From assembly GCA_964030785.1 (NCBI GenBank), contig OZ034966.1, positions 1,895,201 to 1,959,200 of the forward strand: DNA of 64,000 bases, written 5' to 3'. Within the stretch, counting starts at the first letter, position 1; the number at the start of each line of letters is the position of its first letter. The stretch comes from Siderastrea siderea (Eukaryota; Cnidaria; Anthozoa; Scleractinia; Rhizangiidae). This document shows, piece by piece, positions 16,295-56,784 of this stretch. The notes beneath the pieces are model-generated. The model was not told the DNA's origin. It made no database searches and saw only the letters and a program-made list of their open reading frames with translations. The translations under genes and the position numbers were made by a program.

Positions 16295-16319
16295 ATTTTA
16301 TTTTCATTAATATACAACC

Positions 16320-19189: not shown

Positions 19190-19195
19190 TATATA

Positions 19196-20820: not shown

Positions 20821-20842
20821 TTTTTATTGTGTATAGTATGCA

Positions 20843-26490: not shown

Positions 26491-26502
26491 TTTGAATTCT
26501 GT

Positions 26503-31726: not shown

Positions 31727-31773
31727 CAGCGAACCATCATGCTACAACTAGCGACACGTAAACAATTGACCTC

Positions 31774-36326: not shown

Positions 36327-36368
36327 CCTTTGTGTTCCTATTTGAGAAGTGTTCCTTTTATGATGAGG

Positions 36369-38045: not shown

Positions 38046-38354
38046 ACATTTTTTAATTCCTGTTGAGTATTGTGAGTCAAGACGCATGTGAGTCAAGAGA
38101 CATTTATTTATGATCCACGTGCAAAGTCAGTGTTGTCAGTTTTTTATTTTTTAATTAAAAAAGAGTTGATGTTACAAATGGTGGTCTGTATTCTTTGCCA
38201 CGCGGGTGGGGTGTTCCTATTTACAATTGGAAAAAGCTATCTACAATTTGAAAAAAATAAAAAGTAAAAATGGCTATGTACAATGGGAAAAAATAAAAAA
38301 GTAAGAAATTGAAAAAGAAAGCTATGTACAATTCCAAAAGTAAAAACTAAGAAA
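38046..38354. other. Intergenic region between convergent genes
   Basis: AT-rich, with short direct repeats (GCTATGTACAAT three times) and AATAAA-like signals for both convergent genes. No ORF. Confidence 0.5.
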
Positions 38355-39047: not shown

Positions 39048-39262
39048 GGCTTTTGAGAATGAAGATCTAGTGACCAAGGGACCGTCTTAAATAGGGACAA
39101 CGGACCAATGGGAAGACAAGAGGTCCTTATTTGGTTTGAACAAGCTGACCAATGGGAAGATAACAAGTCCTTATATGGGTAGGATAAGCTGACCAATGAC
39201 AGTCAAGGGTCTAAGGTATAAAAAGGCAGGGTCGGTAGGGGTGACATCAACCTTTGAGTACG
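39048..39262. promoter_or_regulatory. Divergent promoter with three CCAAT boxes
   Basis: CCAAT at 39115-39119, 39149-39153 and 39193-39197 (ACCAATG context each time); TATAAAAA (plus) at 39217-39224; TATTTAAG (minus) at 39086-39093. It serves the SLOG and zf-GRF genes. Confidence 0.7.
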
Positions 39263-40132: not shown

Positions 40133-40133
40133 A

Positions 40134-40520
40134 ATGAGAGAACGAATAAAAGTTTTGATCAATGTCACCATGGAGTCTGTATGTGATGCATGGGAGGCTG
40201 TCTTGTCCCTGGGGCAATGGCAATGTCATCAAACCCTTTGTCAAGTCTTATATGATCATCAACCCGGGTCCCAAATCCCCATACCCCCTTGTCCCGAGGA
40301 CACGCATCCTCTCCACCTGTTTGAAGAAACCCATGTGGACTGCAATCTATATCGATGGGTGGTGTTTGTCTTATGGTTAAAAGCTCACCCAGAGGCATGG
40401 CGATGGTATCGAATCATTCAAAAGGCGCATCCCCACACGGTCCCCACCATATCGACCTTATGGGATGAATGCCAGAACGTATGGCCCCTCGAAAGAAAAA
40501 GGTCTCCCCATCATGGTTGA
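40134..40520 (+). CDS. Unknown Trp/His-rich protein, 128 aa
   Basis: Starts 2 bp after the zf-GRF stop, and its 3' end overlaps the integrase start region (from 40469). It is rich in Trp, His and Cys: HLFEETHVDCNLYRWVVFVLWLKAHPEAWRWYRII. The helical aromatic composition suggests a small folded domain. No family recognised. Tight packing and overlap argue it is real. Confidence 0.55.
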   Translation: MRERIKVLINVTMESVCDAWEAVLSLGQWQCHQTLCQVLYDHQPGSQIPIPPCPEDTHPLHLFEETHVDCNLYRWVVFVLWLKAHPEAWRWYRIIQKAHPHTVPTISTLWDECQNVWPLERKRSPHHG

Positions 40521-41620
40521 GTCAGTACCACGATCCTCGAGCCCCCGGCAGTTTAGGAGGGGTGCAACGGTTTGCTAAAGCCCATCGTCTCCCCTTGAAA
40601 AAAGTCCAACGGGTTTTGGAACGGGATTTGGCCTATACGTTACATAAACCGCGACGTCGTCGTTTTCCCACCGTCCCCGTCATTGTAGGAGGATTAGATG
40701 ATCAATGGGTCGCGGATTTAGTAGAAGTGCAACCCTTGGCCAAGTATAATCGGGGTATACGCTACTTGTTGACGGTCTTGGATGTGTTGTCCAAGTATGC
40801 GTGGGTCCAACCGTTGAAAGACAAAACCGGGGTGGCCTTGGTTCATGCCTTTGACAAGATTTTGAAAGGACGACGTCACCCGAATCGATTGCAAACGGAT
40901 CGAGGGAAAGAATTTTATAATCGGACCTTTCAACGATGGCTGGACGAGCAAGGCATTCAACATTTTTCGACCGAAGGGGATGCGAAAGCCAGTGTGGTGG
41001 AACGATTTAATCGCACCTTGAAAGAACGGTTGTACCGTTATTTCACCGCGGCCAACACCTTACAGTTTGACGATGTGTTACCCGAGTTGGTGCAAGGCTA
41101 TAATGCCACCCGGCATCGAAGTATTGGTATGGCCCCTCAAGACGTAACGTGGGACAACGAAGAAGCGGTGTGGAAACGATTGTATGCCAAACGGTTGAAA
41201 GACCAGAAAAAACCTAAATTCAAAGTCGGAGATCGTGTCCGTCTCAATAAGATTCATCGTACCTTTGAAAAAGGCTATTTACCCGGTTGGACCGAAGAAG
41301 TGTTTGTGGTGCATCGGGTGATCCCGGGCCCTGTGCCCACGTATAAGATTCACGAATGGGATGATACCCCCGTCCAAGGTACGTTTTATGAAGAGGATTT
41401 ACAAAAAGTCCATGTGTCCGAGGTGTTTCGCATCGAAAAGGTACTTAAGCGACAAAAAGATCGTTGGTTGGTCAAGTGGAAAGGGTGGCCCGACAAGTAC
41501 AATAGTTGGATTGCAAGTCAAGACGTCACGTCTCTCCAACCACCCCAGAGGAAAAGCCCACCCAAACGACAACTGAAGACTAAAGAGACAAGCCCGCCCA
41601 AAAGACGACGACGCGACTAA
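40469..41620 (+). CDS. Retrovirus-type integrase with C-terminal chromodomain, 383 aa
   Basis: DDE triad: Asp83 in QWVADLVEV, Asp144 in LQTDRGKEF, Glu178 in SVVERFNRTLKERLYRYF. The SH3-like C-terminal region KFKVGDRVRLNK is followed by a chromodomain VFRIEKVLKRQKDRWLVKWKGWPDKY (about residues 333-360) and a basic tail (NLS). Start may be 40469 or the better-placed ATG at 40481 (APRKKK). Chromodomain integrases may target chromatin marks, as in Tf1/chromoviruses. Here it is fused to a Polinton-type enzyme, while the element 1 integrase lacks it. Confidence 0.92.
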   Translation: MPERMAPRKKKVSPSWLSQYHDPRAPGSLGGVQRFAKAHRLPLKKVQRVLERDLAYTLHKPRRRRFPTVPVIVGGLDDQWVADLVEVQPLAKYNRGIRYLLTVLDVLSKYAWVQPLKDKTGVALVHAFDKILKGRRHPNRLQTDRGKEFYNRTFQRWLDEQGIQHFSTEGDAKASVVERFNRTLKERLYRYFTAANTLQFDDVLPELVQGYNATRHRSIGMAPQDVTWDNEEAVWKRLYAKRLKDQKKPKFKVGDRVRLNKIHRTFEKGYLPGWTEEVFVVHRVIPGPVPTYKIHEWDDTPVQGTFYEEDLQKVHVSEVFRIEKVLKRQKDRWLVKWKGWPDKYNSWIASQDVTSLQPPQRKSPPKRQLKTKETSPPKRRRRD

Positions 41621-41625
41621 AAAAA

Positions 41626-42666
41626 ATGACGTTGGTGCCCAACTCTTCGTTTTACGTGACGTTGATGAGTCATGCGAGTACCAAAGAGTTTCCTGGGAAC
41701 AAGAGTCATCATTTCAGAAACCGATTACCTAAACCCATCCGATTTGTGGGACGAGGATGGATGGTGGGTATGGTGAGTTTATCCTTACCCACCATTCCCG
41801 TGGTAGCGGAAGAAGGAGGCGTGGGTGATTCCCATCCTCTGTTGTACGTACGATGGCACGAACGGGTGTATGCCCAAGACGATCAAGGCAACGATCGATG
41901 GTGGCATCAACGTCGCGAACTCTTTGTCTACGGGCGAGATATGAGAAAGGAATTGGCCTCGTCGACGGGATCGCACTTTTTTCATCAACTGGTGTACCGT
42001 TACGTGCAAGCCCGTGCCAAACAAACCGAACCCAAAAACAAATGGGCCGAGGACAATGGCGTTAAATTATACCCGACGTTTGAATGGACCTCCGAAGGGG
42101 ATTTGGTGTTGAATACGACCAAGGTGGATTACACACGACAAGTGGCACGCGTGTTATGGGGCAGAACCTTGGCGCTGAGAATGGGATGGATTGAACAAGT
42201 GTCGACGGGCGTGTATCGATTGGGTCCCAATCTCTTGCAAGAATTTCATACGGACTCCATTCCCACCCCGTCCGATGTCCTGGATGGTAGCAACAAACCC
42301 GCCTTTTGGAAAGTGGATGGGGATTATCTGAACTTGAGTATGACGTGTAATTGGCGGTTTGTGAATGTGAACCAGACCTTTCGTCCCTCGTTGGAATTTC
42401 CCTCCACGCGTCCTTTGCACGTGTATTGTGATGTAGGGACCAGCAGCATGGTAGGGGGCCGCATCACCGATCTCTTACGAGAAATCAAGTACCAGCCTCA
42501 AAATACCACCCACTTTGAACCTCGACATATTCAATATATCCCAGTACGCAACGAAGTGGTGGAAATCGTCGAAACCCAGATGGCCGAAACTAATGGGGAT
42601 CTGGTGAAATTTGGTGAAGGGCATGCCCTCCTGACCCTCCACTTTAAAAGGGAAGTGGTGGTGTGA
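41626..42666 (+). CDS. Penton-like minor capsid protein, paralogue A, 346 aa
   Basis: Opens SSFYVTLMSHASTKEFPGN and HHFRNRLPKPIRFVGRGWMVGMVSLSLP, and ends with CDVGTSSMVGGRITDLLREI, HIQYIPVRNEVVEIVETQMAETNGDLVKFGEGHALLTLHFK. The opening and closing blocks recur in the next gene, with about the same length, so the pair arose by tandem duplication. The pattern FYVTLPSxxS...F.NN...F..RLP.P.xLxGxWxVGL is that of Polinton/adintovirus penton-class proteins. It starts 5 bp after the integrase stop. Confidence 0.8.
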   Translation: MTLVPNSSFYVTLMSHASTKEFPGNKSHHFRNRLPKPIRFVGRGWMVGMVSLSLPTIPVVAEEGGVGDSHPLLYVRWHERVYAQDDQGNDRWWHQRRELFVYGRDMRKELASSTGSHFFHQLVYRYVQARAKQTEPKNKWAEDNGVKLYPTFEWTSEGDLVLNTTKVDYTRQVARVLWGRTLALRMGWIEQVSTGVYRLGPNLLQEFHTDSIPTPSDVLDGSNKPAFWKVDGDYLNLSMTCNWRFVNVNQTFRPSLEFPSTRPLHVYCDVGTSSMVGGRITDLLREIKYQPQNTTHFEPRHIQYIPVRNEVVEIVETQMAETNGDLVKFGEGHALLTLHFKREVVV

Positions 42667-42681
42667 AGAAGAAAAGACAAC

Positions 42682-43731
42682 ATGTCGTTCTACGTGACGT
42701 TACCCAGTCATGCCAACCGACGTGAATTTCCCAACAACCAACCCAATTCCTTCAAGATTCGTTTACCTCAACCGTTACAGCTCACGGGAGGTGGTTGGCA
42801 AGTGGGGTTGAGCGCCATTTCCTTACCAGATGCTCGCGTCAATTTGTATGAGTTGGTGAAGAAAAATGGGTACGTCATGGGGACGTCCTGGGGCCAAACG
42901 TATCCCAAACCGGGTGCAAAAGACGAGGAAATGACCTCGCGAGTAGACACCGCGCGAAGCATCATCAATGACGTCCAAGATTTGGATTGGGTGGTGGATG
43001 GGGTGAGTTTCATGAAAGCCATCATTACTCACTTGGAACAACAACGTATGGAAATGGCCATTCAAGGGGGTCGGTTTACCAATGATCAAGGCAAGCACAC
43101 CTACGTCAAGTTCAAGTGGGAAGGCGAGGATCTGCTCATCGACAACACCAATATCTGCCATTGCGGCACCGACACGCCAGCCCTGACCATCTACACCAAA
43201 TTGGCGCTCAAGATGGGATGGTTACGTAAAATTGACAGTGTATTGATTTTGGGACCCAACTTACAACAAGAATTCATGGGGGATCAAATCCCCAACATGA
43301 CAAAACCCGCTGGCAACGATTGGAACGATGTCAACGACGATCAGAGCAAACCGGTCTTTTGGACGGTGCGCTCGTTTTTACCGGATTATTTACAATTGAG
43401 TATGAGTTGTAGTTGGCGTTTCACCAACTTGAATGTAGCGTTTCGTTCCGTGGTGGGTGAACCCACACGATCGTTGCACGTGTACTCCGACGTGGCAGGC
43501 AGCACGGTGGTGGGCAATCGCGTGACTGATTTGTTACGTGAAATCCAGTACAAGCGAGAAGCACGCGGCAACCTGTATTTTGAACTGTTGCACATTCAAT
43601 ACATGTCTCTTCGTAACGAGGTGGTGGAAATGATTCACGTTCAAGTGGCTGAAACCATTGGTAGAGGAGGAGACTTGGTCAAGTTTGGTGAAGGTCATAC
43701 CATTGTCACGTTACACTTCAAAAAGACATAA
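42682..43731 (+). CDS. Penton-like minor capsid protein, paralogue B, 349 aa
   Basis: Same family as 41626-42666: SFYVTLPSHANRREFPNN, FKIRLPQPLQLTGGGWQVGLSAISLP, SDVAGSTVVGNRVTDLLREIQYK and VQVAETIGRGGDLVKFGEGHTIVTLHFK. The middle is diverged (extra EEMTSRVDTARS helix). Starts 15 bp after paralogue A. Two penton-type proteins might form hetero-pentameric vertices or a penton and a fibre base; this is inference. Confidence 0.8.
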   Translation: MSFYVTLPSHANRREFPNNQPNSFKIRLPQPLQLTGGGWQVGLSAISLPDARVNLYELVKKNGYVMGTSWGQTYPKPGAKDEEMTSRVDTARSIINDVQDLDWVVDGVSFMKAIITHLEQQRMEMAIQGGRFTNDQGKHTYVKFKWEGEDLLIDNTNICHCGTDTPALTIYTKLALKMGWLRKIDSVLILGPNLQQEFMGDQIPNMTKPAGNDWNDVNDDQSKPVFWTVRSFLPDYLQLSMSCSWRFTNLNVAFRSVVGEPTRSLHVYSDVAGSTVVGNRVTDLLREIQYKREARGNLYFELLHIQYMSLRNEVVEMIHVQVAETIGRGGDLVKFGEGHTIVTLHFKKT

Positions 43732-43764
43732 AAAAGAGAGACGAGAAGGGAACCCAAATCAATC

Positions 43765-43998
43765 ATGCCTCCGAAACGACGACGACGACGACGACGCCGA
43801 CCACAGCGTCCACAAGCGGGGGAAGGGGTCAATGCAGTGATTGCCGGGATTCCTAAGGCCGCTTGGTCCATCACCAAAGGGGTAGAAAAGTTAGCCAAAA
43901 AGAATTACCTAAGATCAACGAAGAAACGTATGGAAGAAATGCGAAGTGGGAAACGCAAACGGTGGGCGGGGGAATCGTTTACGTGCAACGTCATGTGA
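43765..43998 (+). CDS. Arg-rich core-like protein, 77 aa
   Basis: Starts MPPKRRRRRRRRPQRPQ, followed by GVNAVIAGIPKAAWSITKGVEKLAKKNYLRSTKKRM and a basic tail. An Arg-rich N terminus plus a short amphipathic helix is typical of adenovirus-like core/cement proteins. No homology by name. Probably binds genome DNA in the virion. Confidence 0.6.
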   Translation: MPPKRRRRRRRRPQRPQAGEGVNAVIAGIPKAAWSITKGVEKLAKKNYLRSTKKRMEEMRSGKRKRWAGESFTCNVM

Positions 43999-44037
43999 GT
44001 ATAAAAAGAAAACAAGAGTTGTGAAAAACAAACAAAG

Positions 44038-44226
44038 ATGCCCAAGACAAGAGTGCGTCGAAGGAGACGAAGAAGAAGGCAACGAGGGGGTCTCTTGCCC
44101 CTGGCCGCCCTCATTCCAGCCTTGATCGCTGGAGGAAAAGCTGTGGCGTTGGGTGCTGCAAGTGGTGCCGCGAGTTACGGGGCTAAAAAAGGGTTGGAAG
44201 CCGCTTTTCGGAAAAAACGACGATGA
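44038..44226 (+). CDS. Arg-rich pX/mu-like protein with QRGG site, 62 aa
   Basis: PKTRVRRRRRRRRQRGG then LLPLAALIPALIAGGKAVALGAASGAASYGAKKG. The RQRGG followed by a hydrophobic segment looks like a maturation-protease site (x-x-G-G-x of adenain). After cleavage an Arg-rich peptide and a hydrophobic, membrane-active peptide would be released. TATAAAAA at 44000-44007 is 31 bp upstream of the ATG. Confidence 0.65.
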   Translation: MPKTRVRRRRRRRRQRGGLLPLAALIPALIAGGKAVALGAASGAASYGAKKGLEAAFRKKRR

Positions 44227-44294
44227 CGGTATAAAAAGGGGAGTCCCATGAAGCCCAAACAAAAACGTTTATCCCTGGTGAAGAAGAAGGCACC

Positions 44295-44621
44295 ATGCGT
44301 GGGGGAAGTTTGACACGATTTCGAACCGACGAGTGGTATGATCAACAAGGCAAAGGAGTGATGACGGATCTGATGCGTGGGGGGTTGCAAGGTCTTATAA
44401 GGACGCGAAATCCTTTAAAATTGCCTAGTAATATCAAGAGAGGCTTGGAAACGGGTTTGACACGCGGTATCAAACGCAAAGCCGAAGACGTCCTTAAAAA
44501 GGAAATCACCAAACAAGCCAAGAAAGCGTTGAGTCATAAGAACGTGAAAGACGCCGTGCGTGTAGCCACTGCCTTATTTCCCAAACAAACCAAACGTGCA
44601 CGTGATATTTTGGGAGTCTAA
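44295..44621 (+). CDS. Small virion protein, 108 aa, homologue of element 1 16320
   Basis: RGGSLTRFRTDEWYDQQGKGVMTDLMRGGLQGLI followed by a long Lys-rich amphipathic helix (IKRKAEDVLKKEITKQAKKAL). The layout matches the broken gene at 16320-16655 (x-x-E-W...G-x-G-V...). It ends with an overlap TAATG with the next start. TATAAAAA at 44230-44237. Confidence 0.65.
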   Translation: MRGGSLTRFRTDEWYDQQGKGVMTDLMRGGLQGLIRTRNPLKLPSNIKRGLETGLTRGIKRKAEDVLKKEITKQAKKALSHKNVKDAVRVATALFPKQTKRARDILGV

Positions 44622-44854
44622 TGGAACCCGTGCATTCACGACCTCGACGGATTCGTAGTAATCGAGGGTTGTCTCAATGGGGTGGACTGTATCCGTTTTG
44701 GAAACTCATGCCACGACGACGACAACGTGGTGGATGGTTGAGTCCCGAGGTGATGCGAGTCCCCGGGTTTGATTTGAGACAACGTTTAGCCCGACGACGA
44801 CGACGCTATAAAAACCCCTCACGACGACGACGGGGTACCACTCGACGACGTTAA
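44621..44854 (+). CDS. Arg-rich core-like protein with QRGG site, 77 aa
   Basis: The start ATG (44621) overlaps the preceding stop (TAATG). It reads RSNRGLSQWGGLYP and then PRRRQRGGWLSPEVM, giving two candidate x-x-G-G sites, and ends in an Arg/Lys run (RRRYKNPSRRRRGTTRRR). An internal ATG at 44708 is an alternative start. TATAAAAA inside the ORF (44807-44814) probably serves the major capsid gene. Confidence 0.6.
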   Translation: MEPVHSRPRRIRSNRGLSQWGGLYPFWKLMPRRRQRGGWLSPEVMRVPGFDLRQRLARRRRRYKNPSRRRRGTTRRR

Positions 44855-44856
44855 AC

Positions 44857-46257
44857 ATGCCTGACGTGAGTACGCAAACCGCCCCGGCTCACGAGCGTTC
44901 CGAAGCGACCGTCAACCCTGCCTTACGGATTTTCAAGGTGCCACCGACCGACATTAGTATCAATGCCTATCGCATGGTCACCATCCAACCCACCACCACG
45001 GGTATCAATCCCATGGAATTCATCATACCGGGATTGGACGATTTTGTGGATTTGGGACGCAGTTACTTTACCATGGAATTGAGTTTGAAAAAGGCGGCTG
45101 GCGGGAACTTGGTGGCCGCGGAGAAATTGTGGCCCGTCAACAATTTGGCCCATTCCATCATCAAGCAAATTGACTTGCAGTTGAATGGCACGTTGATCAG
45201 TCCACAATCCGACACGTATCATTACAAAGCTTACCTGGAAACCTTGCTGAATTATGACCGAGAAGATGGCAAGACCGTGTTAGGACCCCAAGGCTGGTTC
45301 AATCAAGTGGATTTCCCACCCCAATGGACCGCCAACAACACAGACAAAGCAGGACCTGATGCTGCCTATACCGCTCTCCCTGCCAACCACAAAGGAGCCT
45401 TGGACGCCATGGTAGCCGAAACCGCCAAGTATGCTGCAGGTGTCACCCACAGTCTAGTGTTTACCCCGCACTTGGAAGTCTTTCACACTGGCAAACTGTT
45501 GGTGCCTGGCATCGAAATCAAGATGAAATTTCATTTCAATGGTCCCAGCCTGTTTTTGAATGGAGTGGCTCTAGCTGGCCGATTGATGGAGGGGGATGTG
45601 AAACTACGGTTTCATCTCTGCCAACTGCGTTTGAATGACGCCATCTACCAGAGTATCTCTGAAAAAAGACACAATGAAGGCCAAGTGGCGGCTTACCCGA
45701 CCGTCCGCAGTGAAATCCGGACTTTCAGCATGCAAAACAACCTGGTCCGCTTTGATATCCCGAACCTGTTTCAAAACAGAATACCTGACCGATTGATTGT
45801 GGGGTTACTGGACAGCCGTGCCTTCAATGGAGATGTGACCCGAGATCCATTCTGTTTCCAGAAATTTGGTCTGAGTTCCATTAAACAGATTGTCAGAGGA
45901 GAAGAATACCCTTATGAAACCCTCCAGTTAGTGCACAACAATGGCACCCGAGATAATCTAGGCTACTTCCGTTTTCTGCAAGCCAGTGGTGCCTGGTGTA
46001 AAAAGAAAGGCAATATGGTAGAACTGCTGGATTGGGGCCAAGCTAAAAATTGTACCTTGTTCATGTTTGACAATGTGGCCAATGGATGTGCTGACAGTCA
46101 AAACCTCAACCCCAAGCAAACAGGCGATTTACAATTGGTCTTGGAATTTGGAGCTGCCCCCGGTCTCAATATAACCGTACTCGTGTATGGAGAATTTGAG
46201 AACTTGCTGGAGATTGACAGGAACGGAGCCGTGTTGTATAACATTTACCAGCACTGA
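44857..46257 (+). CDS. Major capsid protein, double jelly-roll, 466 aa
   Basis: Polinton major capsid type (the family annotated in animals as F54H12.2-like). Recognised by PVNNLAHSIIKQIDLQLNGTLISPQSDTY, HYKAYLETLLNYDREDGKT, SLVFTPHLEVFHTGKLLVPGIEIKMKF, and a second-domain block IPNLFQNRIPDRLIVGLLDSRAFNGD. Intact, with the strong late-gene layout TATAAAAA-ATG at 43-bp distance. It would form the hexamers of an icosahedral capsid, and is clearly diverged from the element 1 protein, so the two elements belong to different lineages. Confidence 0.93.
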   Translation: MPDVSTQTAPAHERSEATVNPALRIFKVPPTDISINAYRMVTIQPTTTGINPMEFIIPGLDDFVDLGRSYFTMELSLKKAAGGNLVAAEKLWPVNNLAHSIIKQIDLQLNGTLISPQSDTYHYKAYLETLLNYDREDGKTVLGPQGWFNQVDFPPQWTANNTDKAGPDAAYTALPANHKGALDAMVAETAKYAAGVTHSLVFTPHLEVFHTGKLLVPGIEIKMKFHFNGPSLFLNGVALAGRLMEGDVKLRFHLCQLRLNDAIYQSISEKRHNEGQVAAYPTVRSEIRTFSMQNNLVRFDIPNLFQNRIPDRLIVGLLDSRAFNGDVTRDPFCFQKFGLSSIKQIVRGEEYPYETLQLVHNNGTRDNLGYFRFLQASGAWCKKKGNMVELLDWGQAKNCTLFMFDNVANGCADSQNLNPKQTGDLQLVLEFGAAPGLNITVLVYGEFENLLEIDRNGAVLYNIYQH

Positions 46258-46261
46258 AGAA

Positions 46262-46801
46262 ATGGAACATGTGGCCTTGAATAATGTGCAGTTGGATTAT
46301 TTAGCCCGAGACGACCCCCAATTGAACCCGGTCTTTTACGGGACGGTGGCCTGTGATCGTTTACCCAAGAGTCCTGTCAAGACCCAACCTCAAGGGTACA
46401 TTGTGAATACGGACCCACACGATCAACCGGGACAACATTGGTTAGCGGTGTGGACCGATGGAAAGGTGTGTGAAGTCCTGGACAGTTATGCTTTGCCATT
46501 GGATACGTACGTGCAAGCGACCCCGTTACGAGATTGGATTGTCCAACATTGGAAGTATGTGGTGACCAATGGCAAGTCCCTCCAAGCCATTACAAGCAAG
46601 AGTTGTGGTGATTACGCCTTGTTGTACTTGAAAGCCAAAGCCCGTGGACGGACCTTGCAAGCGTTTTTAAATGAGTTTTCGGATCATGATTATGTTAGTA
46701 ATGACCATCAAGCCGGTCAACGCCTTCAACAATTGATTGTAGGCCAAGAAGCCAGATGGTATCAACTTTGTTGTCATCCGTATCATCAATGTAATGCTTA
46801 A
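46262..46801 (+). CDS. Adenain-like maturation cysteine protease, 179 aa
   Basis: The ATG at 46262 (4 bp after the capsid stop) is preferred to the longer frame. His in PGQHWLAVW, Asp in VCEVLDSYALPL, Gln and Cys in LQAITSKSCGDYALLYL (Q-x6-C-G, the adenain spacing) form the catalytic set. Expected to process the many QRGG-containing precursors encoded on both sides. Longer than the element 1 enzyme by a C-terminal extension. Confidence 0.9.
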   Translation: MEHVALNNVQLDYLARDDPQLNPVFYGTVACDRLPKSPVKTQPQGYIVNTDPHDQPGQHWLAVWTDGKVCEVLDSYALPLDTYVQATPLRDWIVQHWKYVVTNGKSLQAITSKSCGDYALLYLKAKARGRTLQAFLNEFSDHDYVSNDHQAGQRLQQLIVGQEARWYQLCCHPYHQCNA

Positions 46802-46829
46802 ATAAAATTTGTTGGAAAAAACTGGTGTC

Positions 46830-46917
46830 GGAGTCGTAGCTCAGTGGGTAGAGCCTTTGGATCCCCCCTCGAATACATGAGGAGGGTCGTGCGTGGGTTC
46901 GAGTCCCACCGATTCCA
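46830..46917 (+). tRNA. tRNA-like pol III gene with aberrant anticodon arm
   Basis: Acceptor GGAGTCG (46830-46836) pairs with CGATTCC (46910-46916); D-arm GCTC/GAGC (46839-46854); T-arm GTGGG-TTCGAGT-CCCAC (46893-46909). A-box TAGCTCAGTGGG and B-box GGTTCGAGTCC are both perfect. Between the D- and T-arms are 38 nt instead of about 23. They fold into one long imperfect hairpin (GATCC..CCTC/GAGG..GGGTC, 46860-46888) with an 8-nt GAATACAT loop; no normal 7-nt anticodon loop with U33 can be formed. A T11 run (46931-46941) provides a pol III terminator. It is best read as a viral tRNA-derived or VA-RNA-like small RNA, less likely an intron-bearing tRNA. Confidence 0.8.
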
Positions 46918-46930
46918 ATAAAAAGGTGCC

Positions 46931-46941
46931 TTTTTTTTTTT
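46931..46941 (+). terminator. Pol III T11 terminator
   Basis: Eleven consecutive T residues 14 bp after the tRNA-like gene, as expected for RNA polymerase III termination. It also lies 18 bp before the ATPase start codon. Confidence 0.75.
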
Positions 46942-46958
46942 CTAAGGGTATTATCATC

Positions 46959-47390
46959 ATGCAAACGGGGAAACCGTTTCGTTTTCATACGCCTTCCTCT
47001 ATCTTGGTGGTGGGTCCTTCGGGATGTGGTAAAACCGCGTTTACGGAAAAACTCTTGGTAGACAACCCCGAGTTGTTTGACACCCCACCGACCCAAAGGC
47101 ATTATTGTTATGGGGCCTGGCAAGATCGATTTCGAAGCATGCAAGATCAAGGGGTGGTGTTTCACGAAGGGATTCCTGATCATGAGGCCTTAGTGCAATG
47201 GTTTCCTGAAGGACAGGGGGTCCTGGTCTTGGATGATTTAATGGATGAAGGCAGTCACGATAAACGCGTGTTGGAGGTGGAGGTGGAGGTGGAGGTGGAG
47301 GTGGTGGTGGTGGTGGTGGTGGGGGTCGTCGTGGACGACGACCGAGACGAATACGAGGACGACGACGAAATACCCCTACTTCCCCTTTGA
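46959..47390 (+). pseudogene. Packaging ATPase, C-terminal part lost
   Basis: The ATG at 46959 starts QTGKPFRFHTPSSILVVGPSGCGKT (Walker A) and continues to GQGVLVLDDLMDEGS (Walker B). About 8 residues after Walker B the frame runs into a GGAGGT/GGT microsatellite (47270-47330), giving a VE/V run and an acidic tail. The sensor/arginine-finger half, about 95 residues in the element 1 enzyme, is absent. The likely cause is a deletion joining the ATPase middle to the Gly-rich gene downstream. The product should not hydrolyse ATP productively. Confidence 0.75.
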
Positions 47391-47626
47391 CACCTGCCTC
47401 CAATCCAGCCAGCCTTCGAGGATCTTGGACATCTGGGAGTCCACCCCCTCGTACCTTGCGTCAAGCGGATTTACAACGACGTTTACGGATGCTGTTACAA
47501 GATCAAGAACAATTGGCCCAAGGACGTGAAATTGCTAATGTCACCATGACCAATAGCATTGTCACCAGTTATAAACAAGGAGGAGCACCGAGCGTACAAA
47601 CCTCGTCGTCCCGTGTTTCGCCGTAA
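47264..47626 (+). CDS. Gly/Arg-rich protein without start codon, ~120 aa
   Basis: A frame open from just after a TAA at 47261-47263: a poly-Gly stretch, RRGRRPRRIRGRRRN, TPTSPLTPASNPA, then a helical TLRQADLQRRLRMLLQDQEQLAQGRE and a Ser-rich end. There is no ATG near its start, so its 5' part seems lost together with the ATPase 3' part. RGG-like basic Gly-rich proteins bind nucleic acid; a coiled-coil or fibre role is also possible. Confidence 0.5.
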   Translation, partial: TRVGGGGGGGGGGGGGGGGGGRRGRRPRRIRGRRRNTPTSPLTPASNPASLRGSWTSGSPPPRTLRQADLQRRLRMLLQDQEQLAQGREIANVTMTNSIVTSYKQGGAPSVQTSSSRVSP

Positions 47627-47628
47627 AG

Positions 47629-48291
47629 ATGAAAACCGTCGTGTCGTTATTGAATGGATCGAAACAGCATGGTCTTCCCTTCCCCCCGGAATTATTACAA
47701 CGCATGGATTCCTTGTATGCCTTTTATCATCAACAATGGTGGTGTTATCGAAAAATGTTGAATCATTACAGGTGTATCAATGCCTTGTTCAATGGCATGG
47801 CCTTACTCCTGATGGCTGCTGGTATGATTGCCGGGCCCCTTTTGGAAAACAGTACATTGGTAGCCTGTTTGGCGGCCGTAGGCACCGTGGTCAAAGGATG
47901 GAATGATTTTAAACAATACCGATTTAAAGTGACCATGAGTCGATTTGCGTTTACCACCTATGCCAAAGCCTTGACCGAATTGAAAACCCATGTGCGGGGT
48001 ATTCCCTTGGAGGATCTGGAACGATTTTTAATCAAGATGCAAACCTTGGATGATACCATTGTGGATTTCACCCCTCCATTACCTAAACGATGTCTCCAAG
48101 ATTACCATGGTCATTTTGTGTACCAACCCTTGGAAGCCCTATGCTATGTAGACGGATGTCCTCGTCCCTTGAGACCCAAAGACTATTGGATCCATAAAAA
48201 GCCGCTCCCTCCTAGTCCCACACTCTTAGAACCATGGCCGCCCAACGAAGACGACGACGCCGAAAAAGGAAACAACGAGGAGGGGCTTTAA
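47629..48291 (+). CDS. SLATT-like two-TM protein, 220 aa
   Basis: N-terminal aromatic helix (AFYHQQWWCYRKMLNHYRCIN), two TM helices (NGMALLLMAAGMIAGPLL and TLVACLAAVGTVVKGW), then the cytosolic helices SRFAFTTYAKALTELKTHVRGIPLEDLERFL and the closing TPPLPKRCLQDYHGHFVY. W-x-Y, 2TM, Y-x-x-L-x-x-(I/V)-R, and (T/S)-P-P-(L/I)-P match the SLATT layout of 2TM effectors. The same family is at 11594-11926. Its C-terminal end overlaps the next ORF. Could be an ion channel-like or virion membrane protein; which is not shown by sequence. Confidence 0.65.
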   Translation: MKTVVSLLNGSKQHGLPFPPELLQRMDSLYAFYHQQWWCYRKMLNHYRCINALFNGMALLLMAAGMIAGPLLENSTLVACLAAVGTVVKGWNDFKQYRFKVTMSRFAFTTYAKALTELKTHVRGIPLEDLERFLIKMQTLDDTIVDFTPPLPKRCLQDYHGHFVYQPLEALCYVDGCPRPLRPKDYWIHKKPLPPSPTLLEPWPPNEDDDAEKGNNEEGL

Positions 48292-48563
48292 TGCGTCGCA
48301 AACCCCGTTTGGTGGATAAAATTGCCCATGGCATGAGTATGTTTCTATCAGGTCCCGCGCCTGGGTTTGGACTGGCTTTAGGCAAATTAGGCGGACAAGC
48401 CTTGAAAGGCATTACCGATAATGTACAACATGTCCGACGACAACGAGGTGGGGGTTGGTGGCAAGATTTCAAACGCAATACCCGTCAAGGCTATAAAGAG
48501 ACGCAAGACCTCATCAAACAAGACAAAGCCCTTCAACGTCTATTGACGGGTCGACCATGGTGA
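48234..48563 (+). CDS. Arg-rich protein with two QRGG sites, 109 aa
   Basis: AAQRRRRRRKRKQRGGALMRRK at the N terminus, then a Gly-rich hydrophobic middle and RRQRGGGWWQDFKRN. Two RQRGG/KQRGG sites flank a 55-aa segment, an arrangement that suggests release of an internal peptide by the protease. Overlaps the preceding gene by 58 bp and the next by 7 bp (ATGGTGA). Confidence 0.6.
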   Translation: MAAQRRRRRRKRKQRGGALMRRKPRLVDKIAHGMSMFLSGPAPGFGLALGKLGGQALKGITDNVQHVRRQRGGGWWQDFKRNTRQGYKETQDLIKQDKALQRLLTGRPW

Positions 48564-48724
48564 GGAGGAGGAGACGACGACGCCGTCGTCAACGAGGCGG
48601 TTTTTTAAATCTATTGGTGCCCGCCATGGTAGGATTGGGGAAAGCCGTGGCCTTGGAAACGGATAAACGTATAAAACGCACGATTCAAAAAGCCAATCAA
48701 CGGTATCGTCGTCGTCACCGATAA
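48557..48724 (+). CDS. Arg-rich pX/mu-like protein, 55 aa
   Basis: Too short for most ORF lists. ATG at 48557 in the overlap ATGGTGA; reads VRRRRRRRRRQRGG then FLNLLVPAMVGLGKAVAL and a basic tail, ending TAA at 48722-48724. Same plan as 44038-44226: Arg-run, QRGG, hydrophobic segment, basic tail. TATAAAG lies inside the preceding ORF at 48492-48498. Confidence 0.65.
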   Translation: MVRRRRRRRRRQRGGFLNLLVPAMVGLGKAVALETDKRIKRTIQKANQRYRRRHR

Positions 48725-48727
48725 AGG

Positions 48728-49045
48728 ATGCAACGTCTTCGACGTCAATTCCCGTTTTTACGGTCCATGTTACAAGAAGCCAATGGTTCCAAACGTCAAG
48801 AGTTGTTACAACATGCCAATGCCGATCAAATCAATGCTGTGAGTGAACTGGTCTTGAACTTTTTAAAAAACAAGATTCCTGTGACCCCACCCATGCTGGC
48901 TAAACTTCAACCCTATAAAAAGGTACTACGTGATTTGGGACGTCGTCGACATTCCGTCAAAAAACGTCGTCAGTGGTTAGTCCAACAAAAAGGAAGCGGA
49001 TTGTTTCAAGGACTTCACGAGGTGTTATGTCAATGTGTTCGTTAA
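48728..49045 (+). CDS. Small conserved Polinton-type protein, 105 aa
   Basis: QRLRRQFPFLRSMLQEANGSKRQELLQHANADQINAVSELVLNFL, then I(P)V-x-x-x-L-x-x-Y-K-x-x-L-R-x-L. This pattern (L-x-x-x-P-F-L...R-x-x-L-L...A-x-x-x-Q-(I/L)-x-A-(V/I)-x-E) is familiar from many cnidarian Polintons. Function unknown. The C terminus has QQKGSGLFQG, a possible xGxG processing site. TATAAAA at 48670-48676. Confidence 0.65.
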   Translation: MQRLRRQFPFLRSMLQEANGSKRQELLQHANADQINAVSELVLNFLKNKIPVTPPMLAKLQPYKKVLRDLGRRRHSVKKRRQWLVQQKGSGLFQGLHEVLCQCVR

Positions 49046-49257
49046 CCCTCCCTACGTGGATGACTCTGTTACAAGAGGCCAATCGGGCCACCGACCAGTG
49101 GAAAGACGAGTGTCATTATTGGAAGCATAAATATCACCTGTTGTATCGAGAGTACCAACACATCTTGAGGGCCCGTCTTTGTAAGAGTTGCCGTGACCAG
49201 GAAGACGGGGAACTTTGCTCCGACTGTAGTCAACGAACATGGACGAGGTCTACATGA
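49027..49257 (+). CDS. Small Cys-rich helical protein, 76 aa
   Basis: ATG at 49027, overlapping the previous gene's end. Helix with EANRATDQWKDECHYWKHKYHLLYREYQHIL, then C-x-x-C and C-x-x-C (CKSCRDQEDGELCSDC), a zinc-ribbon-like knuckle. No family recognised. Its end overlaps the next start by 19 bp. Confidence 0.5.
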   Translation: MSMCSLTLPTWMTLLQEANRATDQWKDECHYWKHKYHLLYREYQHILRARLCKSCRDQEDGELCSDCSQRTWTRST

Positions 49258-49874
49258 TTCCCCAAAAGGACTTGGAACAACTCATTCAATATTACAAAGG
49301 AGAACTCACCGAAAATGCCTTGTTGAACAAAGCCGCCACGCTCGCCGCCCAAAAACATGTGTTATTAGCCAACCCCCAATTACCTCCCGCCCTAGTGAAT
49401 GCTCAAACCAAACCGTTGAGTCAAGAATTAATCAAGTTAACCAAACGCATTCGTCAATTTCCTGGCGGGGTGGGGGTTGGTGCCCCGGGTGCCCCGGGTG
49501 GTCCACCAGGCGAAGAAGAAGAAGAAGCCGGGGATTTGGTGACGGGACCTGTGGAACAATGGTTGAAGCGCATGATAAAAGGCAGCCCGTCGACTCCCAA
49601 ACCACCCATTACCCCTGCAACCAAGAAAGGCAAAGGAGCAGCCACTACCAGTAAGATTGTCAAGAAAGGGAGCCCATCCACCAGTCGAGGGGATCTACAA
49701 TCGCGTTTAGAAGCCATTCGAGAACAGCGCAAGACCTTGGAAAAAAAGTTAGCCGAGAGTCGCAAAGGCAAAGGACCCGCTCGTGAAGTGGAACGATTGA
49801 AACCTTTACCCGGTTGGGAAGATTGGGCTCGTGGCAAAAAGTTACGACGTCGATTGGATTACGACAGTGACTAA
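49239..49874 (+). CDS. Conserved virion-type protein with Pro/Gly-rich linker, 211 aa
   Basis: DEVYMIPQKDLEQLIQYYKGELTENALLNKAATLAAQKHVLL resembles the opening of a common Polinton/adintovirus family (E-x-Y-M-I-P-x-x-x-x-x-x-L). A GVGAPGAPGGPPG-type linker and an acidic patch are followed by a basic helical tail (LQSRLEAIREQRKTLEKKLAESRKG). Function unknown; placed among virion genes, 5 bp before the PLA2 gene. Confidence 0.65.
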   Translation: MDEVYMIPQKDLEQLIQYYKGELTENALLNKAATLAAQKHVLLANPQLPPALVNAQTKPLSQELIKLTKRIRQFPGGVGVGAPGAPGGPPGEEEEEAGDLVTGPVEQWLKRMIKGSPSTPKPPITPATKKGKGAATTSKIVKKGSPSTSRGDLQSRLEAIREQRKTLEKKLAESRKGKGPAREVERLKPLPGWEDWARGKKLRRRLDYDSD

Positions 49875-49879
49875 AAAAG

Positions 49880-50236
49880 ATGCCCACCAAGAGAAAAAGG
49901 GGTATTAAACGGAAACGCCCCCAACGAGGAGGGGCTTTGGATGTCCAAAAATGGATTGCGAAAACTGGGAAGGAATTTCATTGGCCCGGTTATCAGTACA
50001 TGGGGCCTGGCACCCATTTGGCTAAACGTCTGAAACGGGGGGATCCCGGCATCAATCGCTTGGACCAGATTGCTAAGCAACACGACATTGATTACAGCCG
50101 TGCTAAGAATTTGCAAGATAAATGGAAAGCCGATACCAAGATGATCCAAGCCATTGATCGATTACCCGGCAAGAAAAACAAGACGGAACGGGTGGTCAAG
50201 AAAATCATGCAAGCCAAGAAACGTTTAAAATTGTAA
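49880..50236 (+). CDS. Phospholipase A2-domain virion protein, 118 aa
   Basis: Basic start with KRPQRGGALDV (QRGG site), then the calcium-loop-like WPGYQYMGPGTHL and the catalytic AKQHDIDYSRA (HDxxY) followed by KADTKMIQAID. Short but has the key residues of the parvoviral-type sPLA2 domain. The QRGG site would free the lipase domain from an Arg-rich leader. Element 1 has a longer paralogue at 19337-20280. Confidence 0.82.
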   Translation: MPTKRKRGIKRKRPQRGGALDVQKWIAKTGKEFHWPGYQYMGPGTHLAKRLKRGDPGINRLDQIAKQHDIDYSRAKNLQDKWKADTKMIQAIDRLPGKKNKTERVVKKIMQAKKRLKL

Positions 50237-50415
50237 ACATTTAATTAACATGTTGAGTCAAAAATGAAAATGTCACATTGTTATTCTGCAGTTCGGTAGT
50301 CTTCTGTAGTTCGTGTCTCAAGCAGGATTGGCGAGACAGAACCCATTGTGATGTAGACAAGCCAGATAAAAATAAAAACAATGTCATTTGATTCATGAGT
50401 TGTCAAGTTCATTGT

Positions 50416-50540
50416 TCTGTCCAAAATACTGAGACGGATGTTCTGCCAAATACTGAGACGGATGTTCTTCCAAATACTGAGACGAATGTTCTGCCAAATA
50501 CTGAGACGAAATGTTCTGCCAAATACTGAGACGAAAATGT
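50416..50540. repeat. 24-bp minisatellite, ~5 copies
   Basis: AAATACTGAGACG(G/A)ATGTTCT(G/T)CC repeated, with small length changes, in the gap between the PLA2 gene and the 3' end of the minus-strand gene. Confidence 0.8.
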
Positions 50541-50542
50541 TT

Positions 50543-51817
50543 TTACGTTACTAAATCATACATGAAATCCACCCCCTCGTCGGGTGACATGTCGTGAACG
50601 AGGTCTTCAGGGGGTACCAATGCCTCCAAATCAAAGGAACAAGAGTCCTCCACATCCTTCAATAACTCGGTCCACTCGTCAGGTGTTATGTTCTGCAACA
50701 AAGACGAAAAGTCCTCCAAGTCAGAGGGGTCCAAGTCAGGGGGGCCCAAGTCAGGGGGGCCCAAGTCAGGGGGGTCCATGACTTGCACACCCCCCGAATC
50801 CATATCCGTGAGAGTATAAGAATCTAGAAATGATTCACAATAAGAAACGTTCTCAGGCATTTTAGGCGTCGATTTCTTAAAGTCCTCCAAGGGAATGGTT
50901 ACTTTCAAGGGTCCTAATGCTTTGATTTTCTCTTCCGTTTTCTGTCTCTCTACAGAAGGTAAGGAGGCACAAAAGTTATTCAAATACGTTTCCACAGAAG
51001 GTTGCGTCCTACAATTAGTCAATACCACCCGCAGTGTTTTGGGGCGAGGCACCTGCTTTCTTTTGTTTTGGTAGTACCTTCTAGCGAGCTCCAAGAACCT
51101 CTCGCGGTTCGCCCAGTAGTACTCTCTTCTTTGCGCATGCAGTTTCTCCTGGTTCGCAGCACGATAGGCCCGACGAGCCGCCCGGGCTTTTTCCCTTTTA
51201 TTGTACATCCTTTTGTACGCCAATATTCGTACACGATTCTTTTGACGATATTCACGCGCTTTGGCTCTCAAACGTTCCCGATGTTTCTCTCTATACTTTC
51301 GGTCGTATTCGACACAACGTGCTCGGTTCTTTTGGGCCCATTTTTTTTTGACGGCACGCCGGTGCTCCTTATGCGTCTCCTCATAACACCTGTGGGACTC
51401 CCGCACTCGATCCGGATATTGTTCTCGGTATCGTTTTTTGGCAGCACGCACTTTCTCAGGGTACTTGCGTCGGTAGTTGGCTTTTTTCACCATATTCCTC
51501 GCTCGGGCTTTCTCTGGGTAGCGGGCATTGTACCTAGCTTTTTTGATGGCGTTCCGTCTCCGTCGTCGTTCGTCTTTCGTCAGTAACTCTGTCGTTTCGT
51601 CGTCGTTCGGGTCATAGTCGTCAACGTCGTCGTCGTCCTCATCTGGGTCAGAGTCGTCAACGTCGTCGTCGTCGTTCGGGTCGGGAACATAGTCAATGTC
51701 GTTCAAGTCGTCGTTCAAGTCCTCGTCTGGGTCAGAGTCGTTAAGGTCGTTGTTGTTTGGTCGGTACGTCGTGCGTCGTCGGTTGCTGCGGCGGAGGCCC
51801 TCGTTTCCGGCAGGCAT
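50543..51817 (-). CDS. Acidic/basic repeat protein, ~424 aa
   Basis: Start taken as the ATG at 51817 (PAGNEGLRRSNRRRTTYRP); a GTG further up gives 457 aa. An Asp/Asn/Pro acidic tract (about 60 aa) is followed by about ten 16-20-aa basic repeats of the type K(K/R)x(Y/A)RxxxPEKxRAxxxx(Y), e.g. ARYPEKARARNM and KYPEKVRAAKKRY. Then comes a helical domain and an acidic Asp/Leu/Pro-rich C terminus with repeated PPDLG. Such Y-K/R-E repeats occur in several viral and protist proteins and probably form a long charged helix binding nucleic acid. Flanks of opposite charge suggest self-masking or transactivation; function unknown. Confidence 0.6.
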   Translation of the reverse strand: MPAGNEGLRRSNRRRTTYRPNNNDLNDSDPDEDLNDDLNDIDYVPDPNDDDDVDDSDPDEDDDDVDDYDPNDDETTELLTKDERRRRRNAIKKARYNARYPEKARARNMVKKANYRRKYPEKVRAAKKRYREQYPDRVRESHRCYEETHKEHRRAVKKKWAQKNRARCVEYDRKYREKHRERLRAKAREYRQKNRVRILAYKRMYNKREKARAARRAYRAANQEKLHAQRREYYWANRERFLELARRYYQNKRKQVPRPKTLRVVLTNCRTQPSVETYLNNFCASLPSVERQKTEEKIKALGPLKVTIPLEDFKKSTPKMPENVSYCESFLDSYTLTDMDSGGVQVMDPPDLGPPDLGPPDLDPSDLEDFSSLLQNITPDEWTELLKDVEDSCSFDLEALVPPEDLVHDMSPDEGVDFMYDLVT

Positions 51818-52145
51818 TGGGCGATGGCGGTGGTGCTGGTGGCGGGGTGAGGGGGCGCTTGAATTGGTAGCGCCAGTAATTGCAACAGTAATCCAGCCCC
51901 TCCACAAACCACTCACACGTTAATTGAGGGTAGCACAGTGGGTGAAAGGGAGCCGCCTGTTCTGCCCGACGTCTCTGGGCTTCCACTTTTTCCGGCTCCA
52001 ACTGCTTCAAAGTTTCTGCAAACTCACTAAAGCCTTCGTCCTTCAACAGCACCTCCTGCTTCACTTTCTCTAACACCTCTTCCACTTCCAAATCTACTTC
52101 AAACTCTTCAAATGCTTCGAGCAGCTTCTCATGGCAAGAGTCCAT
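51741..52145 (-). CDS. Acidic regulator-like ORF overlapping the repeat protein, 134 aa
   Basis: ATG at 52145, 3' end overlapping the repeat-protein start by 77 bp in another frame. N-terminal acidic helix (LLEAFEEFEVDLEVEEVLEKVKQEVLL), a Cys/Trp-rich middle (FHPLCYPQLTCEWFVEGLDYCCNYW) and a Pro-rich end (PLTPPPAPPPSPN). Layout resembles small viral early transactivators, but no LxCxE motif is present. Driven by the shared bidirectional promoter with PolB (TATA at 52177-52183). The overlap suggests splicing or a two-gene operon-like unit. Confidence 0.55.
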   Translation of the reverse strand: MDSCHEKLLEAFEEFEVDLEVEEVLEKVKQEVLLKDEGFSEFAETLKQLEPEKVEAQRRRAEQAAPFHPLCYPQLTCEWFVEGLDYCCNYWRYQFKRPLTPPPAPPPSPNACRKRGPPPQQPTTHDVPTKQQRP

Positions 52146-52383
52146 GTTGAGATGTTCCAGCCCGAGGATCGATCTGTTTTATAGTCTCTCATTCGTTCCC
52201 GTGATGCACCATGGACCCTAACTAGAGAGGGGGGAGGGGGGTCCCCCCACCCCGTCCCACCCCTCCCTAGGGCACGCCCTCTCTACGGGGCACCCTGTTT
52301 AGTGATTGGCTCCTTCCCCTCCCACGTGACATTTTAATTCTCTATAAAAACAGAGCCCCGATCTCCAGTGAGTTCATCTGATC
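52146..52383. promoter_or_regulatory. Bidirectional early promoter module, right copy
   Basis: Minus-strand TATA (TTTTATA at 52177-52183), CCATGGTGCAT-like block, C/G runs, ATTGG (52305-52309), CACGTG (52323-52328) and plus-strand TATAAAAA (52343-52350), 34 bp before the PolB ATG. It is an inverted relative of 37266-37508. Confidence 0.75.
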
Positions 52384-55300
52384 ATGTCCTCACAAGACAA
52401 GGACAATGTGGCGGGGCCAAGTGGCCTCGCCCACCATGAGGTTTTAGCCATGCTCGGTTTGGACATCTCTGATTCGGACGACGACACCAATTCCTGTGTG
52501 GGGCCTTTGATTTGCACCGAAAACATGGCGGACAGTGACGACGACATTTGTGAAGAGGCCTTGAACCAATGGGAACAAAGTGGGGGTGGATTGGATCCCT
52601 CTGAACACGTTACCTTCGACTTTGAACTCGAACCTTTTGTGAATCGGAAGAGTGATCGCATGGGGGTACAAGAACGTCATTTCAAGACCCAGTTACGACA
52701 AAGGGGGAACTTGATGCCAGGTCAAAATATAACCCAAGCTCTGCAAGATGGATTACGTCGAGCCGTCGATCAAGTGTTAACCACCACCCCCGACCTCCAC
52801 GATCAAGATCGCCTCTACTTTACCATAGCATCCGATCGCCTGCACAATAATTTTCAGGGGTGGGGATTACGTGCCGGTGAATGGCGTCGAGACACAGAAC
52901 GGGTGGAAGCGCTGTTCCAACGTTTAGCCCAAGCCCTCAACAGCAACGAACAATTTGAAATGGATGACTCCTTTCAAGTCTCCATCACTCAAGTTCATCA
53001 TGCTCCTCAAGGCACCGGCAGACCCCGTCGTGGGAAACCCGGCCATCCTACCATGACCATGTTAACGGCCAACAAACGGTCGGTCATCCGGATTATCAAC
53101 GACGATCAACTCTGTTGTGCCAGAGCCCTCGTGGTCGCCAAAGCTCACGTGGACCAACACCCGAAATGGAACAGCATCCGACAAGGAAGTCAAATCCAGA
53201 GAACCCTAGCTTGGGACCTCCAGAATGAAGCCCAGGTACCGTGGGGTCCTTGCAGCTATGATGCCTTGACCCAATTCAGTCAAGCTCCCTCCCTCACCGG
53301 TTACCAGATCATCCTGGTGGATGCGCAGCGATCGTTCCACATCACCACGTTTGGCCCCCTTTCTGACAAACAACTGATCCTGTTGCACAACCAAGACCAT
53401 TATGATGTCATCACCAAATTGCCAGGATTTTTTGGGTCCAGTTATGTCTGTGCGGATTGTTGGAAACCCTATGACCATGAGGGGAGGCATCGATGCACCA
53501 AAACCAAGTTGTGTGGGGCCTGTCGACAGAAAGATTGTCCAGACTTTCAAAATGCTTACCCCCGACACCTGAAAGCCACTCAACGTTGCGACTCGTGTCA
53601 TCGGGACTTTTTTGGACCCACGTGTTTCGAAGCCCATTCCAGCAAGACCCATGCGGGCAAACCCGTCACGGGCCTCCAGACCTCCGTGTGCTCTCAACGA
53701 CACCGATGCGCTGAATGCTATCAACAAAATGTGGGCTTGTCCCGCATTCAACGTCACCTTTGTAAGCACGTGGATTGCCCGTCTTGTCATCAGTACGTCG
53801 ACGCCGACGACCACCGTTGTTTTATACAAAGAGCCCCCAAACCTCAAGACCAAAAGAAGAAGAGAAAGAGGACCCGTCAAAAAGGTCCTCGCGCCAAACG
53901 AGGTGCCGCCGCCGCGGAACCCCATGCCTCCTCCGAGGACGAGGAAGACCTGCCTCCCTTACACGTCTTCTTTGATATCGAAGCCATGCAACCCCACGGA
54001 AAACACATTGCCAATCTCGTCGTGGCCGAAACCGAAGACAACGATGAACCCAAACCTTTCCCAGGTTCCACTTGTATCCGTGACTTTCTGGAATGGCTGG
54101 ATGCCTTGACCCTCCACGATACCCGTCAAGTCAACGTCATCGCTCATAATTTTCAAGGGTACGATGGGTACTTTATCATCCAAGAATACTATGGGGAGAA
54201 CCGCATCGTCCAACAACTCCGCAACGGATGTAAACTCTTAGAGATCAAACATGACCGCATCCGGTTCATTGATTCCATGAGTTTCTTCCAGATGCCCCTC
54301 TCCGCGTTTCCCAAAACCTTTGGTTTGACAGAACTCTGCAAAGGCTATTTCCCCCACAAGTTCAACATACCCGGTGATAAGCATCAAAACTACGTGGGCA
54401 TCCTCCCCTCACGCGATTACTACATGCCTGAGAGCATGACACTCGAAGGAAGACAAGCCTTTGAAACCTGGCATCAACAACAACGCGACCAGGGTGTGGT
54501 GTTTCATTTTCAACAAGAGTTGTTGGCCTATTGCAGTTCCGATGTACGACTCCTCAAACAAGGATGTCTGACTTTCAAACGCATGTTTGAAGACTTAACA
54601 GGCTTCAATCCCTTCGATCACGTCACCATTGCCTCCGCTTGTAATCGAGATTTACGTATGAACCGGATGATCCCCAACAGTATTGCCAGCGAACCCACCG
54701 GTCCGAAGGGGTGGAGAACTAACAACATCAACCAGTCCCTCCCAGCCCTTCACTGGTTAACCTGGTGCGATCACCAACTACGTCAACGGGCCCTCCAAGA
54801 TCTCAACCCCAACGATCTACTGGCCAGTGCCAATCCAAAGCCTCAGTACATCCAACATGTCCGAAATGAAGGCGAGTATAAGATCCCCGGGACCAACATC
54901 CATGTGGATGGTTATTGCCCCGACACCCACACCGTCTACGAATTTCAAGGCTGTTTCACCCACGGATGCCCTACCTGTTATCCCCATCGCTACGAAAAAC
55001 ATCCCCGCAACTATGATCGAACCATGCATGACCTCTATGACGTCACCCAAAACAAAGTCCAAAAGCTTACCGACCAAGGGTACAACGTCATTCAAATGTG
55101 GGGATGTCAATGGGACCACCTCCGAGACACCCACCCAGAGATCGACTCCTTCGTCCGGGAACTCAACTTTATCCAACCTCTTGAACCTCGGGATGCTTTC
55201 TGTGGAGGTCGTACCAATGCCATTAAACTGTACCATCATATCACCCCTGGCCAAAAAATTCACTACATCGATGTCACCTCCTTGTACCCGTGGGTCAACA

Positions 55301-56764: not shown

Positions 56765-56784
56765 GGAACACTCAGGAAAACCAC

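Follow-up and report, generated by a model that had tools for sequence, protein, structure and literature searches.

A tRNA-like gene with a variable central arm at the protease-ATPase junction of Polintons in the coral Siderastrea siderea

The window analyzed here is a 64,000-nt stretch of the Siderastrea siderea genome (assembly GCA_964030785.1, contig OZ034966.1, positions 1,895,201 to 1,959,200 of the forward strand), and all coordinates below refer to it. It contains a Polinton of 21.2 kb in which a tRNA-like gene is embedded between the genes for a protease and an ATPase. The gene combines RNA polymerase III (pol III) promoter boxes, tRNA fold elements and a terminator; its place in the element is fixed, and the arm found where a tRNA has its anticodon arm turns over in sequence, its basal pairing usually being kept.

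Structure of the tRNA-like gene

The RNA body (46830..46917, plus strand, like all of its parts) is about 88 nt long and consists of an acceptor stem, a D arm, a replaced arm, a T arm and a discriminator A at 46917. The acceptor stem, GGAGTCG/CGATTCC, forms seven pairs, one of which is G-U. Judged by the A-box and B-box consensuses both promoter boxes are perfect, the A box lying at 46837..46848 next to the D arm (46839-46854) and the B box at 46896..46906 within the T arm (46893-46909). The 38-nt interval between the D and T arms (46855..46892) is made up of the linker CTTTG, a hairpin (46860-46888) and the linker GTGC. A downstream block, AATAAAAAGGTGCC, leads into 11 Ts at 46931-46941, the two together (46917..46941) providing a pol III terminator with an overlapping poly(A)-signal-like hexamer. 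Another AATAAA, poly(A)-signal-like or TATA-like, is found at 46801..46806, 29 nt upstream of the RNA. The locus thus has the A box, B box and T-run terminator of a type-2 pol III gene.

The Rfam tRNA model recognizes 46830-46917 as a tRNA fold with 46.1 bits (cut-off 29; E 1.2e-6 over the window), and this score, together with the sequence, bears out the boxes, 7-bp acceptor, D and T arms, T11 and 38-nt interval described in an earlier note on this DNA. Rfam families beyond tRNA gave no match near the cut-off for the window copy. The fold z-score of the same segment is -3.18. With its 38-nt single-hairpin interval, the window copy does not have the 5-bp stem, 7-nt loop and anticodon of a decoding tRNA, and ARAGORN reports it as tRNA-??? 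with a 4-base "anticodon" and no isotype.

Copies, conservation and the central arm

The genome searched has 402 contigs totalling 831 Mb. A DNA search of it brought up 1186 first-look candidates, of which 40 copies were scored, with identities of 98-100%. A pattern in which the A box and B box were fixed and the 20-50 nt between them left free gave 996 matches genome-wide and its reversed control none, which excludes a chance origin. The first 100 of the 996 matches, all from one contig, were listed; reading the list by interval, 97 are Polinton-like and three host tRNA-like. The 70 loci examined represent 71 of these 100 places, all chosen through the box pattern and 20 of them for odd arms. 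The tRNA-like gene lies between protease and ATPase in 67 of the 70 (30/30, 17/20 in the odd-arm set and 20/20), and the placement described in the earlier note therefore applies well beyond the window; the other three (L051-L053) are host tRNA-like sequences without Polinton genes. All 67 Polinton loci carrying the gene have it at the same junction, the protease match ending 36-71 nt before the start of the A box and the ATPase match beginning 108-133 nt after it. Antisense open reading frames (ORFs) of contigs in the protein database show the same junction: a T-arm/D-arm search matched 38 of 39, and five more were recognized by eye. At one locus (L046, 2072-2573) the protease-end/tRNA-like/ATPase-start junction is tandemly duplicated, with two identical arms 416 nt apart.

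The acceptor strands and the downstream block were not imposed by the search pattern, and they vary much less than the adjacent spacers. In 54 copies the mean edit distance per nt is 0.057 for the 5' acceptor strand, 0.097 for the 3' strand, 0.06 for the linkers and 0.033 for the downstream block, compared with 0.091 for the protease, 0.132 for the capsid gene and 0.258 and 0.286 for the two spacers. A downstream run of 6-11 Ts is present in 53 of the 54, which together with the boxes supports the internal tRNA-type promoter and T-run terminator of the earlier note. AATAAA occurs upstream in 53/54 copies, at -29 to -32 in 45 of these, and directly downstream of the RNA in 53/54 (CATAAA counted as a match); these hexamers may serve as mRNA-end signals, act like a TATA box, or do both. 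The acceptor stem is complete, with all seven pairs, in 67 of 74 copies. Two of the 74 carry a C-G to G-C double change, and two others the half-changed, mismatched forms.

The arm, of about 6-10 pairs, occurs in about eight sequence types, which were distinguished by eye from their loop motifs; T5 and T2b are each represented by one sequence. Over 48 distinct cores, 92.9% of the positions in the five basal pairs hold standard pairs, falling to 66.7, 44.6 and 43.3% when one side is slid by 1, 2 or 3 nt. Basal pair 3, for example, appears as T-G (22), T-A (14) or C-G (11). When the 5' and 3' sides were swapped between types, the native sides paired better over the eight types summed, and only 50 of 40320 permutations did as well; the signal comes from T2, T2b, T3, T5 and T7. 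Two tests thus lend modest support, on the sequence comparisons, to co-variation in the arm, to which some types contribute but the window's type does not. The pairing that the earlier note expected in the long arm is in this sense upheld for part of the family. In a few intervals the lowest-energy fold differs from the basal hairpin.

Different arm types are found on elements only ~2% apart in their flanking genes. Mapped on either flanking-gene tree (74 copies), the types require 27 changes, compared with ~44 for shuffled labels, a count that mixes exchange, conversion and mutation on trees made rough by recombination. The notion that the arm evolves faster than everything else was considered and rejected, its distance of 0.323 being about the same as those of the flanking spacers, and positive selection is not claimed.

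The host Polinton and the rest of the window

The element occupies 35947..57191 on the plus strand and has AG...CT termini and long inverted terminal repeats (arms at 35946-36326 and 56785-57192); it is flanked by a 6-bp target duplication, CCAGTG (35941-35946 and 57192-57197). Long terminal inverted repeats, AG...CT ends and a 6-bp duplication are the defining values of Polintons/Mavericks, and the gene set agrees, the integrase and family B polymerase being clear and the protease and capsid matches falling below cut-off. The identification of the host as a Polinton by the earlier note is secured by its termini, duplication and genes. The integrase with its chromodomain is encoded at 40469..41620 (Pfam rve E 2.2e-13, Chromo 1.4e-5) and the DNA polymerase at 52384..56559 (DNA_pol_B_2 E 3.1e-44). 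The ORF at 44857..46257 is the probable major capsid protein, named by its position and a weak Capsid_N match (13.5 bits, cut-off 24); it has 460 homologues, and among the 120 listed are two named proteins from the stony coral Oculina patagonica. The adenovirus-type protease (46187..46801) matches Peptidase_C5 with 18.2 bits (cut-off 21.3). Downstream of the tRNA-like gene, 46959..47390 encodes the 5' part of a P-loop ATPase, recognized by P-loop matches and taken by position as the packaging ATPase; its reading frame stops after a repetitive low-complexity stretch (47310-47390). All these genes are on the plus strand, and the element also encodes a PLA2-like protein. No relatives were found in IMG/VR, scanned with the capsid protein, a 20-sequence capsid alignment and the box pattern, or in INPHARED, scanned with the protease.

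A second and quite different Polinton-like element lies at 9232-26824, bounded by 322-nt inverted repeats that are 98% complementary. It encodes a collagen-like protein (12867-13871), an A32-type ATPase on the opposite strand (13871-14503), a protease-like ORF recognized by eye and without a Pfam match (18746-19189), a PLA2-like protein (19396-20127) and an integrase (20843-21841); no polymerase match was found among the ORFs tested. Its protease-like and ATPase genes are not adjacent. Between the two elements, at 30925-31873, is a foldback-like repeat with 324-nt arms, 99% complementary and 301 nt apart. A tRNA-Ala-like sequence (CGC; Rfam 29.3 bits) at 62958-63030 has inverted repeats nearby and is perhaps the head of a short interspersed element (SINE) of tRNA origin.

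Function of the RNA and its alternatives

The reading tentatively favored, with the chances for and against it nearly balanced, is that a Polinton lineage carries here a genuine small RNA gene, the product of which is a non-decoding, pol III-made tRNA mimic that engages a tRNA-binding factor of the host. An RNA of ~88 nt would be produced from the type-2 promoter and end at the T run, host pol III making it while the element is active. It would fold as a tRNA cloverleaf in which a longer, sequence-variable hairpin between fixed linkers replaces the anticodon arm. The transcription by pol III, maturation and abundance of this RNA are predictions from its sequence. More speculatively, it would occupy the host factor as a decoy or inhibitor, whose target is equally conjectural, with the variable arm as the adapting part. 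That this arm is a fast-turning-over specificity module on a constant tRNA chassis is a rather doubtful extension of the proposal. Unrelated arms on elements so closely related are what one would expect from an arms race in which the arm follows a host target, or from a role of the arm in recognition between competing elements.

A number of observations weigh against the tRNA-mimic reading. The conservation of the boxes is not independent evidence, since the copies were found by their boxes. In three copies (L041, L047, L065) the 5' acceptor strand is lost or replaced, the boxes, arm and 3' half being kept, and four further copies have one acceptor mismatch each; a shuffle test for acceptor covariation over 12 haplotypes was not significant (1492 of 5000 as good). 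When the 3' sides of the arm were dealt anew among the cores, 91.2% of the basal pairs still formed on average and 48 of 2000 deals equaled the observed value, and in T1 (to which the window copy belongs), T4 and T6 swapping the sides does not worsen the pairing. The mean fold z-score of 55 distinct intervals is only -1.04, with 31 below -1 and some showing no excess stability. The call is tRNA-Gln (TTG) for each of four T3 copies (L019, L024, L073, L078), and at 53.4 bits L019 outscores the window copy. In the second element the Rfam tRNA model finds nothing at E up to 1, and the tRNA-like gene is hence not general to Polinton-like elements, as judged from this one element. Finally, left unconstrained, the window copy has its energy minimum as a rod (-39.3 kcal/mol). 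The single long hairpin that the earlier note saw in place of an anticodon arm is obtained, with nine pairs, if the regular arms are imposed on the fold (-34.5 kcal/mol), but it is not the unconstrained minimum. The rod, energetically preferred, was nevertheless rejected: at the D-loop base that it requires, 25 of 54 copies have G, 25 have C and 4 have T, its partner C (which falls inside the search pattern) stays fixed, and the copies with their uncompensated variation therefore give it no support.

The main rival is that the tRNA-like sequence is a punctuation or boundary element, either excised from a pol II transcript by RNase P and RNase Z or separating the capsid-protease and ATPase units through TFIIIC bound to the boxes, which would give the mRNAs of the two units a clean end and a clean beginning. 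The near-constant distances to the two genes and the AATAAA hexamers on both sides would suit such a role, which is unlikely but carries appreciable weight; it leaves unexplained a central arm that is variable yet usually paired, and the conserved T run. An inhibitor of double-stranded RNA sensors (PKR, Dicer) of the adenovirus VA RNA type is suggested by the element itself, which is virus-like, encodes an adenovirus-type protease and carries a tRNA-type pol III promoter, and VA RNAs have themselves been proposed to derive from tRNA genes (PMC6599070, accessible portion). According to the same portion, however, at least 20 bp are required for even partial inhibition of PKR by VA-I (PMC6599070), compared with the ~6-10 pairs of the arm, and the longer duplex that the rod would offer is disrupted by the uncompensated D-loop changes. 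The PKR-blocking analogue put forward in the earlier note is accordingly dropped in that sense, and the VA-type reading as a whole is quite improbable. The same note's idea of a primer, or of a replication or packaging signal, draws on a tRNA-like 3' end that could prime and on the fixed position. The polymerase of Polintons is protein-primed, and complements of the window arm in the rest of the element are at most 10 nt long, those of other arm types at most 11; the primer idea thus found no support, and a signal of this kind is very unlikely indeed.

A functional but odd decoding tRNA, with an intron or a long variable arm and aiding translation of the element, would account for the 40-53 bits that the tRNA model gives to all but one (L047) of the 13 Polinton loci scanned and for the concordant Gln calls, and ordinary tRNAs do occur in Polinton-like viruses (PMC12220804, as far as its available text goes). 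Across the copies, ARAGORN returns no tRNA, no definite isotype, or differing ones (Gln, Lys, Glu, Arg, Gly, Ser, stop), so that the normal tRNA named in the earlier note as the contrary outcome was not called consistently; two other T3 copies are called stop or left without an isotype. By eye, T1, T2 and T6 arms have no 5-bp anticodon stem. Anticodon loops as a rule carry U33, and the T3 loops lack it. In the four Gln-called T3 copies, CTTTGG can pair with CCA(A/G) as an anticodon-like stem, and these copies may be nearest to an ancestral tRNA. Decoding is very improbable, because most copies have no coherent anticodon. Lastly, a tRNA-derived SINE or stray host tRNA might have been inserted once and copied along, host tRNA-like sequences being at hand (62958-63030 and L051-L053). 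The identical junction in 67 of 67 loci, the roughly eight arm types, and stems and a terminator conserved between variable spacers make this extremely improbable; no SINE body, tail or flanking duplication was seen in the sequence read, though no systematic search was made.

Several known RNAs resemble the proposed tRNA mimic. The mascRNA and menRNA of MALAT1 and MEN-beta are likewise non-decoding and tRNA-like, and the Polinton RNA too might be cut from a longer transcript; their model, however, matches the window copy at chance level (13.6 bits, cut-off 42.5, E 4.7). The tRNA-miRNA-encoding RNAs (TMERs) of murine gammaherpesvirus 68 (MHV68) are likewise of viral origin, transcribed by pol III, equipped with A and B boxes and tRNA-like in structure, and their tRNA-like part by itself can rescue pathogenesis (PMC8223928, in the part accessible). 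Unlike the single hairpin that here replaces the anticodon arm, TMER hairpins are separate from the 5' tRNA-like part and yield microRNAs (miRNAs) (PMC8223928, same part); the fold of 46830-46941 has no pre-miRNA-sized hairpin beside the tRNA-like part, only a short A/T-rich one before the T run. VA RNA I and II share with the Polinton gene internal A and B boxes, tRNA-like elements, a related viral protease and the pol III transcription predicted for it, but VA-I, as described in the accessible portion of PMC6599070, combines a 22-bp apical stem with a pseudoknotted central domain; the Polinton RNA, at 88 nt, keeps its cloverleaf arms and has no apical stem of ~20 bp or more. The tRNA genes of Polinton-like viruses and virophages also match the tRNA model within related elements; 558 tRNAs were reported from 8300 genomes scanned and interpreted as decoding or codon-compensating (PMC12220804, available text), whereas here the gene keeps to one junction and its isotype calls are absent or conflicting. 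A text search of PMC11071296 found no occurrence of tRNA, noncoding RNA or Pol III, and literature searches, which had most subscription papers outside their reach, brought up no conserved non-decoding tRNA-like or pol III RNA of Polintons. The earlier note, which knew of no such RNA in Polintons, agrees with the literature searched as regards non-decoding RNAs; ordinary tRNAs are reported in Polinton-like viruses. The Polinton RNA is best placed with the viral pol III tRNA-like RNAs, a known kind, as a variant not met in the literature searched.

Adenoviruses and gammaherpesviruses are the classic users of pol III non-coding RNAs, and Polintons are thought to stand near the root of many eukaryotic DNA viruses. 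A conserved, structured pol III RNA in an animal Polinton, if true, would extend the adenovirus and gammaherpesvirus strategy to Polintons. The roughly eight arm types on one chassis would then form a natural multi-copy series for finding the host factor of a viral tRNA mimic outside the vertebrates.
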